DNA of 32,314 bases from Bacillota bacterium (GTDB taxonomy: Bacteria; Bacillota; Sulfobacillia; Sulfobacillales; Sulfobacillaceae), in the NCBI GenBank assembly GCA_021784595.1, contig JAJYHT010000041.1, positions 1 to 32,314 of the forward strand. The letters are read 5' to 3'. Shown here piece by piece: positions 9,721-16,525 of this stretch (positions are counted from its first letter, which is position 1; the number at the start of each line of letters is the position of its first letter). The position numbers and the translations under genes are program-made. The notes beneath the pieces are model-generated. The model was not told where the DNA came from, did not search any database, and worked only from the letters and a program-made list of their open reading frames with translations.

Positions 9721-10753
9721 TGTGCTGTCGGCATCTCCCGAAGAATTAGCTTCGCTGCTAACCGAAGCGGGAGAGCCAAGGTTTCGCGGACGCCAACTTT
9801 TTGAGTGGCTCTGGCTTCATGGAGTAGAGAGCTATGATGAAATCACCGTGTGGCCTAAAGCCCTGCGGATAAAAATGGCCCAAGCACTGCCCTTGGTACG
9901 TCTTGTGGCTGAACACACCCAAGTGGCCCGCGATGGCACCACAAAACTACTCTTAAGACTGGCCGACGGAAACCGAGTGGAAACCGTTCTGCTTCCTCAT
10001 CCTTATGGCTATAGTGTTTGCGTCTCTTCTCAAGTGGGATGCAATATGGGGTGCCATTTTTGCGCATCGGGCCTGTTGGGCAAAAAACGCAATCTGACAG
10101 CCGGGGAAATGCTGGATCAGATTCGGTACGCCCAAAAACTCCTGCAGGACCGCGGACAGCGGGTCAGCCGCGTCGATTTAATGGGAATTGGCGAGCCCTT
10201 GGACAACTATCAGGAAATGGTCCGGTTTCTTCACTTGTTGCACCAACCGCCAGGCTTCAACCTTAGCTACCGCCATGTCACGGTCTCCACTAGCGGCCTG
10301 GTGCCTGCCATCTACCGATTGGCCGACGAAGGTATGCCACTAACTTTGGCGGTGTCCTTGCACGCTCCCACCGATGAGTTGCGCTTGTCCTTGATGCCGG
10401 TCAACAAAGCGTTCCCGTTGGCCCGGCTCATCCCGGCCTGCCAGTATTACAGCGAAACTACTGGACGGCGAGTCAGTTTCGAATATGCCATGTTGGATGG
10501 CATTAACGATTCAGACGAAGCGGCGCGCCAACTAGTCGATTTAATCCGAGGATTTCCGTGTCACGTTAATTTGATTCCGTGGAATCCTGTCGAAGAACAC
10601 CCATTTCAACCATCTCCTTTAACTCGAGTTCGACAGTTTCAAGAATTAGTGCAAGATCATGGAATTTCTTGTACGATACGAAAAGAGCTAGGACAAGAGA
10701 TTGACGCCGCGTGTGGCCAGTTGCGTCGCCGCGAGGAGGAGATTTTACGGTAA
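9701..10753 (+). CDS. rlmN: Dual-specificity 23S rRNA/tRNA adenine-C2 methyltransferase, radical SAM
   Basis: RlmN methylates A2503 in 23S rRNA and A37 in certain tRNAs by a radical-SAM, Cys-relay mechanism. The 350-residue chain shows the [4Fe-4S] motif C114-x3-C118-x2-C121 (GCNMGCHFCASG). It has the N-terminal RNA-binding segment FRGRQLFEWLW, GIGEPLDN, VSLHAP, the substrate-binding stretch VNLIPWNPV, and a late Cys (AACGQL, about 341) that would carry the methyl-Cys intermediate. Start ATG 9701 is preceded by agagaagg and lies inside the end of rsmB. The reading frame overlaps the following phosphatase gene. Cfr-type resistance enzymes are homologous, but the conserved chromosomal position favours RlmN. 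Confidence 0.93.
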   Translation: MTSENPDVLSASPEELASLLTEAGEPRFRGRQLFEWLWLHGVESYDEITVWPKALRIKMAQALPLVRLVAEHTQVARDGTTKLLLRLADGNRVETVLLPHPYGYSVCVSSQVGCNMGCHFCASGLLGKKRNLTAGEMLDQIRYAQKLLQDRGQRVSRVDLMGIGEPLDNYQEMVRFLHLLHQPPGFNLSYRHVTVSTSGLVPAIYRLADEGMPLTLAVSLHAPTDELRLSLMPVNKAFPLARLIPACQYYSETTGRRVSFEYAMLDGINDSDEAARQLVDLIRGFPCHVNLIPWNPVEEHPFQPSPLTRVRQFQELVQDHGISCTIRKELGQEIDAACGQLRRREEEILR

Positions 10754-11487
10754 AGACCTACGGGCAATCGCATCGAGGGTTGGTACGTCTTCGCAATGAA
10801 GACAGCCTTTTAATGCGGTCGGTTGATTTCGACGGATATTTAATCGCGGTAGCGGACGGCATCGGTGGGGGACCTAGTGGCGGGGAAGCCAGCCGATTGG
10901 CGTTGCAGACGCTCGATGATGCAGTGGGAATTCTGGTTAAAGACGTGTCCAGACTGGTATCGGCAGTCTCTCTAGCCAACCGCCGCCTGTTCGAAGTGGC
11001 GCAGGAAGAAGAGTCTTTGCATGGAATGGGAACCACGTTGACCGCCGCTATCTTATATCCTGCACGTCTGTTTTTAGCTCACGTGGGAGATTCTCGCGCC
11101 TATCGACTCAAAGTCGATGAAATGGTGCGGCTTACAGCGGACCATTCGGTGGCGGGGGAGATGGAACGTGCGGGGTCCCTGACCCAAGATGAAGCGATGC
11201 ATCATCCGCGCCGTCACGTGCTGACCCGTGCCATCGGACCCTTTGACCGCGTGCGTGTGGATGTAGCCGACTTAGCCTGGCAAACCGATGATCGACTGCT
11301 CTTGTGCACTGATGGTTTATCTTCGGTAGTGCCTGACGAAGAGATTTTCCGGATGAGCCAGCGGTTTTCTGGCCAAAATTTGGTTGACGCTTTAATTGAA
11401 ACCGCGCTTTCGCGCGGGGGACCCGACAATGTCACCGTGGTGTTGGCAGAAGTGGTGCAGGATGTGGGTGACGGTCATGGTAGGTAA
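10711..11487 (+). CDS. PP2C-family Ser/Thr protein phosphatase
   Basis: The phosphatase is the likely partner that dephosphorylates the kinase encoded immediately downstream and its targets (PrpC/Stp type). PP2C metal-binding motifs are all present: RNEDSLL, VADGIGGGPSGGEAS, GMGTTLTAAIL, AHVGDSRAYRL, LTADHSV, LLLCTDGLSS and GGPDNVTVV. The start is uncertain. GTG 10711 adds about 12 residues before the family start and has only a weak upstream AGGA. An excellent ribosome binding site (aggagga, 10734-10740) instead points to ACG 10747, with no canonical start in this frame between GTG 10711 and TTG 10780, which would remove the first strand. The gene overlaps rlmN by up to 43 nt and the kinase by 11 nt. 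Confidence 0.9.
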   Translation: MWPVASPRGGDFTVKTYGQSHRGLVRLRNEDSLLMRSVDFDGYLIAVADGIGGGPSGGEASRLALQTLDDAVGILVKDVSRLVSAVSLANRRLFEVAQEEESLHGMGTTLTAAILYPARLFLAHVGDSRAYRLKVDEMVRLTADHSVAGEMERAGSLTQDEAMHHPRRHVLTRAIGPFDRVRVDVADLAWQTDDRLLLCTDGLSSVVPDEEIFRMSQRFSGQNLVDALIETALSRGGPDNVTVVLAEVVQDVGDGHGR

Positions 11488-13390
11488 GGTTTTAGGGGGA
11501 CGCTACGAGGTTTTAGAGCGGATTGGCACCGGCGGCATGTCGCTTGTCTATCGCGCTCGGGACCTGACACTGAATCGCCTGGTCGCGGTTAAAATTTTGA
11601 AACATCAATGGGCAGAAGATGAGGAGGTGGTGCGGCGCTTCGACCAGGAGGCACGTTCTGCGGCATCCTTAGTCAACCGCCACATCGTGCAGGTTTATGA
11701 CGTCGGTCGGGAAGAGCCCGATGTCCACTATATGATTATGGAACTGGTCGCCGGCGAACCATTACGCACCAAGATAGACCGTGACGCGCCGTTGCCTGTC
11801 ATGGAAGCGTTGGACATTGTTGACCAAGTGGCGGCGGGCCTGGAAGCAGCCCATAGCAACAAAGTGGTGCATCGTGACATTAAACCGCAAAATATTTTAC
11901 TGGCCGAAGACGGCACGGCTAAAGTCACTGACTTCGGAATTGCTTATGCGGCAACTTCGGGGACCTTGGTCAATACCGGGTCCATGCTGGGCACCGTGCA
12001 ATATCTCAGTCCGGAACAAGCTCGTGGCAAATCCGTAGGCCCGCAGTCCGACTTGTATTCATTAGGTGTGGTGCTGTTTGAAATGCTCACCGGACGGCTG
12101 CCCTTCGAAGGCGAAAGCGCGATCGGCGTGGCCATCAAACACCTGCAGGACGAAGCGCCTAAAGTGCAAAGCCTGCGTCCAGACATTCCCGACGCGGTAA
12201 GCCGGATTGTAGAGCGTTCCTTGGCCAAAGACTCTGCCGAACGTTATCGCACAGCGCAAGCATTTCGACAGGATGTCGCGCAGGTGTTGCATCCCGATCC
12301 GGTACCGGCCGTGTCCGCACTGCCCGAATCAGAGCTAGCCAACCGCAGCGTCGTCGCGGAAACTGCTAAAAAAAAGCCCAAGGGCCCTCGAAAACCTCGA
12401 CCGCGGTGGATTCCTTGGGCCATTGGGGTCGCTATGCTGTTGCTGTTGGCGGGAGGAAGCCTCTACGCCTTTAACAAATGGTTGGATGTACCTTCGGTAT
12501 CTGTGCCTAATGTCAAGGGACAGTCCTTGGTGAGTGCCAAAATACATTTGGAAAGCGTGCGCTTGACGGCGACAATCGTGGGCCGAGCACCCTCGACACA
12601 CCTGCCCAAAAACTATGTCATTAATGAAATTCCCGGCGCCGGGACGCTAGTCAAAGAGGGTCAATCAGTACAGCTGGTATTGTCTTCGGGACCCATTGAG
12701 GTCAGCGTGCCCAACGTCAAAGGACAGGATATTTTCCTGGCCAAGCAAGAATTGAGCACATTGCAACTGCATGTGACCGTGCACCAGGTAACCAGTCAAC
12801 AACCCCAAGGACTGGTGATCAGACAATCGCCGACGCCAGGCACGATGCTGCCCCAAGGCCGGACGGTAACCATCTGGGTTTCCAACGGTCCGCCGGCGGC
12901 AGCTCAAACCATGCCCAATCTGGAAGCTCTGACGGTATCGGAAGCAGCCAGTGAACTGATTGGACTGAATCTTACGGTGGGAACCCCTAATGTGACTTAT
13001 AGCACGCAACCGGTCAATACCATAATCGACCAGAATCCCGAGCCGTATGCTGCCATCTCTGGAACCTCTTCAGTTAGTGTGACGGTTTCAGAGGGCCCTA
13101 GTCCTCAGAGCGCGAACTTGCCGAAAAATGTTCAAATGTTAACGTGGCAGATTCCGTCCACCGCGCAGCCTAAATCGGTATTGAAGGTGGTAGTAACCGA
13201 CAGTGCGAACAACGAAGAGGTGTTTTACCAGCAGGTTAACCCAGGAACGCCCGTGCAGATCCCGGTGACCTGGTTTGGCACCACGGGTCAAATGCTGGTG
13301 TTTTTGAATGGTCAGGCGCAGGCGCCTCAAGTGCTCACGTCCAATACCGGCACTTCGACGCCGCCCGGCACTACCGGAAATGGGACTTAA
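11477..13390 (+). CDS. prkC: Membrane Ser/Thr protein kinase with PASTA repeats (PknB/PrkC type)
   Basis: The 637-residue kinase starts at ATG 11477, overlapping the phosphatase stop. Kinase domain (10-272): glycine loop GTGGMS (17-22), Lys39 in VAVKILK, HRD at 132-134, DFG at 152-154, and an activation segment rich in Thr/Ser before YLSPEQARG. A basic juxtamembrane stretch (KKKPKGPRKPRPR) leads to one membrane helix (about 311-331). The outside part holds three PASTA repeats (about 341-408, 409-475, 476-545), which in relatives bind muropeptides or lipid II. After them come about 90 residues of a separate beta-rich domain and a Thr/Gly/Pro tail. In spore formers such kinases sense peptidoglycan fragments and affect germination and cell-wall control; here that is inferred. 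The C-terminal domain is not part of the minimal PrkC layout. Confidence 0.92.
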   Translation: MVGKVLGGRYEVLERIGTGGMSLVYRARDLTLNRLVAVKILKHQWAEDEEVVRRFDQEARSAASLVNRHIVQVYDVGREEPDVHYMIMELVAGEPLRTKIDRDAPLPVMEALDIVDQVAAGLEAAHSNKVVHRDIKPQNILLAEDGTAKVTDFGIAYAATSGTLVNTGSMLGTVQYLSPEQARGKSVGPQSDLYSLGVVLFEMLTGRLPFEGESAIGVAIKHLQDEAPKVQSLRPDIPDAVSRIVERSLAKDSAERYRTAQAFRQDVAQVLHPDPVPAVSALPESELANRSVVAETAKKKPKGPRKPRPRWIPWAIGVAMLLLLAGGSLYAFNKWLDVPSVSVPNVKGQSLVSAKIHLESVRLTATIVGRAPSTHLPKNYVINEIPGAGTLVKEGQSVQLVLSSGPIEVSVPNVKGQDIFLAKQELSTLQLHVTVHQVTSQQPQGLVIRQSPTPGTMLPQGRTVTIWVSNGPPAAAQTMPNLEALTVSEAASELIGLNLTVGTPNVTYSTQPVNTIIDQNPEPYAAISGTSSVSVTVSEGPSPQSANLPKNVQMLTWQIPSTAQPKSVLKVVVTDSANNEEVFYQQVNPGTPVQIPVTWFGTTGQMLVFLNGQAQAPQVLTSNTGTSTPPGTTGNGT

Positions 13391-13393
13391 GGC

Positions 13394-14257
13394 ATGCCGG
13401 AGGGATTAGTCACCTTGCTGGAAGCCAATCGACCAACGGTCACCACATCGACGGGCACCCAATTTTTATGTTATTTGCGAGGGCGCGTGCGCCGCGACGC
13501 CGGGCGCATCATGGTTGGCGACCGGGTGGAATTTGAACCCACGGAAAACAATGAAGCCATTATTACCAGAATTCTGCCGCGTGGCCGCCAGTTAATCCGC
13601 CCCCCAGTTGCCAACATTAGAGGAATATTTGCTTGTTTTTCCTTGACTTATCCTTCGGGAAATTTGGAGCTGTTGGATAAGCGACTGGTGTTAGCGGCAC
13701 TAGACGGCATTGAAGCTGAGATTGTGGTCACCAAAGTAGATTTAGTTAATGACACTGAACGACTCCATCAATTACTTTCACTGTACCGGTCGATTGGATA
13801 TCGAACCTGGAGCCTTAGCGTGGTCGACGAAACAGGAATTGCCGAATGGCTCTCCACCCCACGTGACGGGATTTGGGTCTTGACGGGAGAAAGCGGCGTA
13901 GGCAAGTCCTCCTTGATTCGGCGGACAATTCCCCATGCCGCCATCGAAACCGCAGATTTAAGCCGCATCGGGAGGGGCCAGCAGACGACCCGCTGGGTGC
14001 GGCTCCTGCCCATTCATAATTTTTGGTTGGCCGATACTCCAGGATACACCGCGTTGGAAAAAGAGGGCGCCGATCCGCGTCTGATTGCGTCTGCTTTTTG
14101 GGAGTGGCGCAACGTGAGATGCCGCTTCCCCGATTGCTCGCACCGCACCGAACCCGAGTGCCAAGTGGTGGCGGGCGTATCTGGGGGACAATTTGCGCAG
14201 ACCCGCTACGACCATTATCGATTAATGCTGGAACAGTGGGCGAAACGATGGAATTGA
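13394..14257 (+). CDS. rsgA: Ribosome small-subunit biogenesis GTPase RsgA
   Basis: The 287-residue circularly permuted GTPase acts in late 30S maturation. It has an N-terminal OB fold (about 1-70, GRVRRDAGRIMVGDRVEF). The GTPase motifs come in permuted order: G4 TKVD, then G1 GESGVGKSSL, then G3 DTPG. A C-terminal zinc site is formed by C-x4-C-x-H-x5-C (CRFPDCSHRTEPEC). The switch I region includes GRGQQTTR, where many family members have GRHTTT. The start ATG 13394 follows the kinase stop by 3 nt; the end overlaps the next gene by 10 nt. The phosphatase-kinase-rsgA-rpe order is conserved in Firmicutes. Confidence 0.93.
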   Translation: MPEGLVTLLEANRPTVTTSTGTQFLCYLRGRVRRDAGRIMVGDRVEFEPTENNEAIITRILPRGRQLIRPPVANIRGIFACFSLTYPSGNLELLDKRLVLAALDGIEAEIVVTKVDLVNDTERLHQLLSLYRSIGYRTWSLSVVDETGIAEWLSTPRDGIWVLTGESGVGKSSLIRRTIPHAAIETADLSRIGRGQQTTRWVRLLPIHNFWLADTPGYTALEKEGADPRLIASAFWEWRNVRCRFPDCSHRTEPECQVVAGVSGGQFAQTRYDHYRLMLEQWAKRWN

Positions 14258-14775
14258 CCACACCGCGCCGCGGGCTCATCGTGTCGGGCGGTCTGCCCTT
14301 TTCTAGCGCTGGCGTTGACGTGCTGCATATCGACTTAGTGTGTGACCAGATCGAACCCACGCTGCAATTGGTGGACAACATCCGACAGGATACTGAGCTG
14401 CCCATCGACCTGCATATGATAAAAGGGTGCCAAACAATCTCGGCAGATGTCTGGCATCGCCACGGCGTCGACCTGATATCTCGGGACTGGAGTGCAGCCC
14501 TTGGCCTGGATGATTTTAAAAGCTTGCGCCAATTCGGCCTACTGTGTGGAGTGGTCTTCGGACGGTGGAGTGAGGTCTTAGAGGAAGAGCTACTGCAAGC
14601 GTGGCCATGGATTGACATGGTCACGGTGACCAGTTCGGATCCGTGCTATGAAAGAGCGTTAGCCTGGCTCATCCAGCACAGAGGGCAGCACAACCATCGC
14701 CCACTAGTCGCGCTAAAAGGCCGACTGGATATCCTCAACGTGGACATTGCGATGGCGGACGCTACATCTTCTTAA
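14248..14775 (+). CDS. Degenerate ribulose-phosphate 3-epimerase-like protein
   Basis: The 175-residue protein sits exactly where rpe is expected, overlapping rsgA by 10 nt. Its first half matches Rpe: SAGVDVLHIDLVCDQ aligns with the GGAD-HIDVMDG strand, keeping His27 and Asp29, and LPIDLHMI aligns with LPLDVHLM, keeping Asp54 and His56. The rest is eroded. There is no MDG-FVPN segment, the VNPGFGGQ phosphate loop is replaced by VTSSDPCYE, and the VDGG strand carrying the second catalytic Asp reads LVALKGRLD. It is about 45 residues shorter than normal Rpe. I infer loss of epimerase activity, perhaps with a retained structural or regulatory role, since the frame is intact and codon use resembles its neighbours. 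A true rpe would have to exist elsewhere. Confidence 0.65.
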   Translation: MELTTPRRGLIVSGGLPFSSAGVDVLHIDLVCDQIEPTLQLVDNIRQDTELPIDLHMIKGCQTISADVWHRHGVDLISRDWSAALGLDDFKSLRQFGLLCGVVFGRWSEVLEEELLQAWPWIDMVTVTSSDPCYERALAWLIQHRGQHNHRPLVALKGRLDILNVDIAMADATSS

Positions 14776-14862
14776 ATCATGCACCTTTTGCCGCAAGCTC
14801 CGTACCATGATGAGTGTCACTTCTGGTGATGCATCGGGAGGCCCGGCAAAGGAGGGAAGATT

Positions 14863-15084
14863 ATGCGTCCCATCCGCGGTTCATGGAGGGCCCGTCGGCA
14901 AATGCCATATAGGCTAGGGGGTGTCGGACTCGCACTGGTGGGTGGAATTCTGATCATTAAAATTCTGCCGCTTTGGACTTGGGCGGTCGGTATCGGGTTA
15001 TGGCTGGTGTGGGCAGGACTGGGGCCTGTGTTGGTGGGAGGACTGTTGATATGGGTTGGATATCGATTATTCGTGGTGCGATAA
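14863..15084 (+). CDS. Small two-span membrane protein of unknown function
   Basis: ATG 14863 is preceded by a perfect ribosome binding site (aaaggaggg, 14848-14856). The 73-residue product has a very basic N-terminus (RPIRGSWRARRQ), then two to three hydrophobic stretches (VGLALVGGILIIKIL; WAVGIGLWLVWAG; LGPVLVGGLLIWVGYRLF) separated by short turns, and ends VVR. I do not recognise a family. It lies 29 nt upstream of spoVM and could be co-transcribed with it, which makes a sporulation role possible but unproven. The 87 bp between the epimerase-like gene and this start show no clear promoter or terminator. Confidence 0.7.
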   Translation: MRPIRGSWRARRQMPYRLGGVGLALVGGILIIKILPLWTWAVGIGLWLVWAGLGPVLVGGLLIWVGYRLFVVR

Positions 15085-15113: not shown

Positions 15114-15200
15114 ATGCGGGTACAGGTGGTAAAGGTTCCGCGCGTAGTAGGCAGAGTGTTGCAATTTGTGTTAGGATTTTGGGCGCGAGACAAGCATTAA
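15114..15200 (+). CDS. spoVM: Stage V sporulation protein M, curvature-sensing coat-assembly peptide
   Basis: A 28-residue ORF starting at ATG 15114 after a purine-rich ribosome binding site (gtgggggagc). It matches SpoVM position by position: Lys7, Pro9, Gly13, Leu20, Gly21 and Asp26 coincide with the Bacillus protein, and the rest keeps an amphipathic, basic-hydrophobic helix (VVKVPRVVGRVLQFVLGFW). In Bacillus this peptide embeds in the convex outer forespore membrane, recruits the coat ATPase SpoIVA and is needed for coat and cortex formation. Pro9 is the residue that sets the shallow membrane insertion. The position between the rpe locus and rpmB is also that of spoVM in Bacillus. It is easily missed because of its size. 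Confidence 0.88.
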   Translation: MRVQVVKVPRVVGRVLQFVLGFWARDKH

Positions 15201-15242: not shown

Positions 15243-16115
15243 GTGCTGGATTATCGGGTTAAGGCGACGGCAGCTGGCGGCTCTATACGGGCCTTTGCCA
15301 CTAGGACGACGCACACAGCGCGTGCCATTCAAAGTGTGCAACAAGCGTCCCCTGTAGCTGCCGCCGCCTTAGGGCGGCTGGCCACGGCAGCAGTTCTTTT
15401 GGCTGCGGACTTTAAAACCGACTTTCGACTGATGGTGGAGGTAGATGGGCAAGGGCCGTTAGGCCGCACAGTGGCTGAAATTCGCACTGGGGGATTGGTC
15501 AGAGCCCGTGCGCAGCATCCAGGAATAGATCTGCCCTTGCGGGCCGATGGCAAGTTGGCGGTGGGACAAGCCGTTGGTTGTCCAGGCGTCCTGCGGGTAG
15601 TGCGCGAAGAAGCGGGACAGGCTCCGTATGAAGGCCGTACGCCTTTGATTAGTGGAGAAATTGGCCAAGATTTGACCGCCTATTATGTGCAGTCGGAGCA
15701 GGTACCCAGTGCCGTGGCCTTAGGCGTGTTGGTCGATAGGGACACCACGGTGGCGGCGGCAGGGGGGATAGTAGTGCAGGCATTGCCCGGCAGTGACGGG
15801 CGCACTGAAGAGATCGCAGCCCGTTTTGAACAATTGCATAATCTGAGTTTACGGCTATCTTTGGGCGACACGCCAGAAGATTTGTTGCGCTATGTTTTGC
15901 CTGGCCCCATTCACTGGTTTGAGCGCGAGCCCATTCAGTATCAGTGCCAATGCAGTTTGGAACACAGCATTGCCATTATCGAAAGCTTGCCTAAGGAAGA
16001 ACTGGAAAGTTTGCTTTTAGAGCAGGGGGCAGAGGTGGTGTGCCATTACTGTAACACGGCATACCCCATCTCGGCAGCCGTCTTACACAGGGCAACACAG
16101 ATTTCGGAGCACTAA
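15243..16115 (+). CDS. hslO: Redox-regulated chaperone Hsp33
   Basis: Hsp33 is a holdase chaperone switched on by oxidation and heat. The 290-residue protein starts at GTG 15243, chosen because LDYRVKATAAGGSIRAFA is the family N-terminus. Visible features are RLMVEVDGQGPLG and the C-terminal zinc switch C235-x-C237 (QCQCS) with C267-x2-C270 (CHYC), all four Cys present. Oxidation would release the zinc and expose the binding surface, a sensible safeguard in an organism facing metal and acid stress (inference). It follows spoVM by 42 nt and points towards rpmB, from which it is separated by about 140 bp with a terminator on the other strand. Confidence 0.93.
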   Translation: MLDYRVKATAAGGSIRAFATRTTHTARAIQSVQQASPVAAAALGRLATAAVLLAADFKTDFRLMVEVDGQGPLGRTVAEIRTGGLVRARAQHPGIDLPLRADGKLAVGQAVGCPGVLRVVREEAGQAPYEGRTPLISGEIGQDLTAYYVQSEQVPSAVALGVLVDRDTTVAAAGGIVVQALPGSDGRTEEIAARFEQLHNLSLRLSLGDTPEDLLRYVLPGPIHWFEREPIQYQCQCSLEHSIAIIESLPKEELESLLLEQGAEVVCHYCNTAYPISAAVLHRATQISEH

Positions 16116-16445: not shown

Positions 16446-16525
16446 AAAAGGATCCTCCTCCGACACGATAACATACCGTGATATGGTACCATGAACGTAA
16501 AATCTGCGCAAGGTTGGGATATGCT

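Follow-up and report, generated by a model that had tools for sequence, protein, structure and literature searches.

Beside rsgA, the stretch of DNA analysed here (the window, 32,314 nucleotides) carries a gene that resembles rpe, the gene for ribulose-phosphate 3-epimerase, but encodes a protein without the active site of that enzyme. An earlier note, made from the letters alone, left the question of whether such a gene has taken on a new role or is in recent decay. The gene, here called psi-rpe, lies at 14248-14775 on the forward strand as an open frame of 175 codons and a stop. Its ATG is situated 10 bases within the 3' end of rsgA (cpgA; 13394-14257, +), overlapping the rsgA stop, and this overlapping ATG was kept in five relatives. 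Upstream of rsgA are a PASTA Ser/Thr kinase gene of the prkC type (11477-13390, +; assigned with Pfam, start codon inferred) and a PP2C phosphatase gene of the prpC/Stp1 type (10711-11487, +; profile match). Downstream of psi-rpe follow genes for a conserved small hydrophobic protein of 73 aa (14863-15084, +) and a conserved SpoVM-like microgene of 28 aa (15114-15200, +), and then hslO (Hsp33; 15243-16115, +) at the right edge of the conserved block. The order is therefore prpC, prkC, rsgA, psi-rpe, the 73-aa gene, the 28-aa frame and hslO, and both the open, rsgA-coupled frame and the neighbours named in the earlier note (PASTA kinase, phosphatase and RsgA) were confirmed.

The 28-aa frame, MRVQVVKVPRVVGRVLQFVLGFWARDKH, is conserved in five relatives; it had no match in Pfam or NCBIfam, being too short for one. 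We take it to resemble SpoVM of B. subtilis and to sit where that gene order predicts. The 73-aa protein also had no family match in Pfam or NCBIfam. Very few synonymous changes were found in its gene among the genomes G001, G003 and G004 (dS 0.03-0.06, compared with about 0.8 in rsgA), which suggests constraint at the nucleotide level. Between psi-rpe and this gene lies a conserved leader (14781-14862, +) containing GCACC...CGTACCATGATGAGTG. An outer helix of the leader pairs CCTTTT-GC-CG with CGGCAAAGG; its arms covary between species, and the ribosome-binding site would lie within it (RNAfold -28 to -35 kcal/mol). The leader had no Rfam match at the gathering score. The genome contains its core motif once, a second match within an unrelated coding gene having been discarded as chance. 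The leader could be a promoter combined with a regulatory RNA. Beyond hslO, rpmB (ribosomal protein L28; 16254-16511, -) overlaps the start region of an asp23-type gene at 16478.

The psi-rpe protein scored 21.9 bits against the Pfam profile Ribul_P_3_epim (PF00834), just above the gathering cut-off of 21.1, and 21.2 bits against TIGR01163, far below the equivalog cut-off of 212.6. When profiles of six pseudo-Rpes and nine Rpes were compared with hhalign, psi-Rpe residues 17-175 aligned with Rpe residues 20-197 (probability 98.6, E 6e-16), spanning strands 2-8 of the Rpe barrel. A sequence-profile search of PDB chains likewise returned Rpe as the top match (1rpx, E 1e-9). The word remnant, which the earlier note had applied to this TIM barrel, does not suit an alignment of that extent; the sequence represents a whole barrel in shortened form, not a truncated one.

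A functional Rpe has four metal ligands, the H and D of HxD, the H of DVHxM and the D of DGG, with two catalytic Asp residues among them. In psi-Rpe, H27, D29 and H56 are present and the second Asp is absent. H27-I-D29 (codons 14326-14334, +) is what remains of the first metal-ligand motif; in relatives its His is lost in genus g3 and its Asp is changed to Glu in two cases. Of the Rpe metal ligands, only H56 (codon 14413-14415, +) is shared by 7/7 pseudo-Rpes. Lys157 (codon 14716-14718, +) replaces the invariant catalytic and metal-binding Asp, which was found in 25/25 rsgA-linked Rpes and 16/16 Rpes of a second type described below, compared with 0/7 pseudo-Rpes. The M-D-G-x-F-V-P-N segment and the VNPGFGGQ and DGG phosphate/substrate loops are missing, as are the phosphate-binding loops after strands 6, 7 and 8. 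Most of what had been read from the letters agrees with this alignment: HID and LPIDLHM are kept (H27/D29 and H56), and MDG-FVPN, VNPGFGGQ and the second catalytic Asp are gone. The statement that the first strands match Rpe holds for HID and LPIDLHM but fails for the first-strand motif PSILSADF, which is also lost. A shortfall of about 45 residues is a fair estimate, since in normal Rpes at the rsgA locus of relatives the matched core spans about 209 aa or more.

A functional rpe elsewhere had been envisaged, and when the genome of the window (3.79 Mb, 97.5% complete) was searched with the Pfam Rpe profile, one normal, full-length Rpe was found, at G000:C42:55676-56269 (280.6 bits with Pfam, 294.5 bits with TIGR01163). 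Its gene has a phosphoribulokinase gene upstream and a gene for an AAA protein with an AAA_lid_6 domain downstream, which we read as CbbX-like. An Rpe adjoining phosphoribulokinase and a CbbX-like gene was found in other genomes of the family as well. Wherever the rsgA-linked copy is degenerate or deleted and genome coverage is good, this second type was present; the only exception is G001, which is 71% complete. A direct search of the genome collection with the psi-Rpe protein matched only a normal Rpe. In the tree, the second-type Rpes group into one clade whose branching agrees with the species tree, so the common ancestor probably had two Rpes. Third, more distant full-length genes of the Rpe family were also observed at G003:C22:55294-55878 and G005:C107:11240-11818 (173 and 183 bits).

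The block prkC-rsgA-rpe-small protein-hslO is conserved across the family and in one neighbouring family. At the rpe position, a degenerate Rpe was found in genera g1 (G000, the genome of the window, with G001, G003 and G004), g3 (G006 and G015) and g2 (G005), the frame being free of internal stops in all six species besides that of the window. A normal Rpe occupies the position in genera g4, g6, g7, g8, g10 and g11 and in family f2, and genus g5 (G008) has both a normal Rpe there and a second Rpe. The gene has been deleted in seven g9 genomes and in G035; g9 keeps the same downstream genes without the psi-rpe frame, and the locus gene is thus dispensable in this sister genus. Sequence comparison suggests that the lineages probably sorted two ancestral Rpes differently. 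Sequencing or assembly error was ruled out, as independent genomes share the degenerate state. Synteny, together with the residues that psi-rpe shares with rsgA-linked Rpes, excluded descent of the gene from the Calvin-cycle copy; the Rpe tree, with its extremely long pseudo-Rpe branches, was uninformative on this point. With rsgA and hsp33 as markers, a single origin with g1, g3 and g2 as a clade was rejected (AU p 0.005), whereas a single origin followed by deletion in g9 was not (AU p 0.093). The sequences thus indicate one origin, with deletion in g9, or two.

An AlphaFold2 model of psi-Rpe had a pLDDT of 76 and a pTM of 0.74, and it matched Rpe structures with Z 14-16 over about 169 residues (Z 16.0 to 1tqj_E), although the alignment supplied consisted of normal Rpes and the model leans to the Rpe fold accordingly. 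Prediction from the single sequence was uninformative (pLDDT 44). As to whether the barrel closes, a check that the earlier note had proposed, strands 2-7 were modelled with confidence and strands 1 and 8 with low confidence; judged by the model, the (beta/alpha)8 barrel probably closes.

Almost every residue conserved across all Rpes has been lost. Among positions invariant in both Rpe types, 4/54 (including the His of strand 3) were kept in at least six of the seven pseudo-Rpes, compared with 9/24 among positions invariant only in rsgA-linked Rpes (Fisher p 0.002, which is indicative only, as the rows are related). These nine positions (R65, L70, P71, D94, L119, L133, R172, R177 and P178 in G008 numbering), several of which vary in second-type Rpes, are for the most part located immediately ahead of strands 3, 4, 5 and 7 in the model. 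Overall, the majority of the kept positions precede strands 3-8, at the barrel end opposite the active site. On the model, this pattern fits a loss of catalysis with the fold kept, and perhaps a contact surface too; residues at the N-terminal strand ends may also be kept merely for folding. Contact through the face opposite the lost active site is, on this modelled evidence, a possibility that we place slightly on the doubtful side of even.

If psi-Rpe acts by contact, one conceivable partner is the catalytic Rpe itself, psi-Rpe entering the oligomer of the Calvin-cycle enzyme and tuning its activity as a regulatory subunit. Activation by a dead paralogue has a precedent in S-adenosylmethionine decarboxylase (PMC10211241), and in all well-covered genomes psi-Rpe is accompanied by the second Rpe. 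However, the residues kept are of the rsgA-linked type, unlike the second-type Rpe, the two rpe genes are unlinked, and g9 has the second Rpe without psi-Rpe. We regard this arrangement as unlikely.

Barrels of this kind often change reactions, and psi-Rpe might instead be a new enzyme, remodelled for another small-molecule reaction with His56, Trp81 and Trp119, which are invariant in 7/7 pseudo-Rpes. Trp81 and Trp119 were rejected as new shared residues, being present in some normal rsgA-linked Rpes. With the loops after strands 6, 7 and 8 gone, a sugar-phosphate site is unlikely, and residues of the catalytic face differ among g1, g2 and g3, so that no common new site is visible. A new catalytic function is therefore quite improbable.

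Selection on the gene was assessed in four close pairs of pseudo-rpe sequences, which gave dN/dS values of 0.22, 0.17, 0.27 and 0.18 (bootstrap 95% limits 0.09 to 0.39). For the copy in the window, which lacks a close relative among the genomes compared, support for selection is indirect and comes from the 24 invariant residues given below and from comparison with G001, in which codon positions were 48, 63 and 35% identical, with second positions held and third positions near saturation. Comparison values were 0.05-0.15 for rsgA and hsp33, 0.08-0.18 for the second-type Rpe and 0.04-0.10 for normal rsgA-linked Rpes, which places the pseudo-Rpes at about twice their neighbouring genes and far under neutrality. 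Amino acids changed about six times faster than in rsgA/hsp33 (tree branch length 1.6 compared with 0.27), which indicates weak to moderate constraint. The last quarter of the gene evolves fastest (dN 0.22-0.39) and is the least constrained. The psi-rpe gene is kept intact by purifying selection, with constraint weaker than on its neighbours.

These values bear directly on neutral or near-neutral decay, by which psi-rpe would be a pseudogene, made redundant and still open for lack of time. A redundant full Rpe does exist in the genome, g9 and f3 did delete the locus copy, and the fast last quarter would also suit decay. However, neutral simulation at the same distances gave dN/dS of 0.5-1.4 and a stop codon in 96-99% of runs per close pair, whereas the observed values of 0.17-0.27 lie outside that range and no internal stop was found in seven genomes. 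Moreover, 24 residues are invariant over six pseudo-Rpe sequences of g1 and g3. The degenerate state is common to these two genera, between which synonymous sites are saturated, and it is not recent. Decay is thus very improbable, and the comparison of sequences supports the other outcome that had been put forward, a non-catalytic role, whether new or residual. It is equally hard to credit a passenger frame, selected only for ribosome passage to the small protein, the spoVM-like gene and hslO with its residues hardly mattering, for although the overlapping start and the downstream genes are conserved, such selection would purge stops but not yield these dN/dS values, and g9 has the downstream genes without the frame.

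As in pseudoenzymes generally, a conserved catalytic motif has been lost and the gene is intact under purifying selection. From the sequence comparisons, its product is very likely a selected protein that is no epimerase, and we consider it probable, with some reserve, that it is a long-maintained pseudoenzyme acting by protein contact since catalysis passed to the Calvin-cycle Rpe. The sequences strongly indicate that two rpe genes existed in the ancestor of this family and of its sister family, one beside rsgA and the other adjoining phosphoribulokinase. In this lineage the latter copy kept its full Rpe motifs and would have taken over catalysis; the rsgA-linked copy lost its active site, but its frame remains open at the old position, where it still overlaps rsgA and is subject to purifying selection. 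Its product would still fold as a shortened (beta/alpha)8 barrel and act through the conserved face at the N-terminal strand ends, a face that goes back to the rsgA-linked Rpe. As its partner, a protein encoded in the same operon (RsgA or the RsgA regulators PrkC and PrpC) would be the most likely, with the catalytic Rpe in second place; RsgA by itself is a tentative and rather doubtful choice. In B. subtilis, RsgA (CpgA) is a target of PrkC and also proofreads a side product of pentose-phosphate metabolism (PMC6449344). According to the same paper, deletion of rpe does not give the glucose phenotype of cpgA; any direct link between Rpe and RsgA is therefore tentative. A more speculative and unlikely idea is that in Firmicutes the rsgA-linked Rpe also has a non-enzymatic role, in contact with RsgA or PrkC/PrpC, which the loss of activity exposes here.

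A duplicated housekeeping enzyme has met four fates in one family (kept alone, both kept, deleted, or kept catalytically dead), a natural experiment on the effect of redundancy on an enzyme. Should a contact role persist in the dead form, this would explain why rpe stays by rsgA and prkC in Firmicutes and would tie pentose metabolism to ribosome assembly.

Pseudoenzymes are known as a kind and commonly work by allostery or scaffolding (PMC10211241); as far as we searched, an Rpe-derived case is undescribed, a partial literature library containing nothing that joined ribulose-phosphate 3-epimerase with pseudoenzyme or Sulfobacillus with Rpe. Among its nearest known counterparts, psi-Rpe shares with the rsgA-linked Rpe (PF00834/TIGR01163) the prpC-prkC-rsgA-rpe position, a whole-length profile alignment and the residues R65, L70, P71, R172, R177 and P178 (G008 numbering); it differs in lacking the catalytic Asp, DG-FVPN, the phosphate loops and the first-strand motif, and in being about 35-45 aa shorter. 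The Calvin-cycle-linked Rpe (CbbE type; C42:55676-56269) belongs to the same superfamily and probably shares the fold, but its Rpe motifs are all intact, its neighbours are phosphoribulokinase and CbbX-like genes, and it belongs to a separate clade in the tree. The activator of S-adenosylmethionine decarboxylase is, like psi-Rpe, a catalytically dead paralogue kept by selection; there, partner and effect have been measured (PMC10211241), whereas the role of psi-Rpe is proposed from sequence and modelling.
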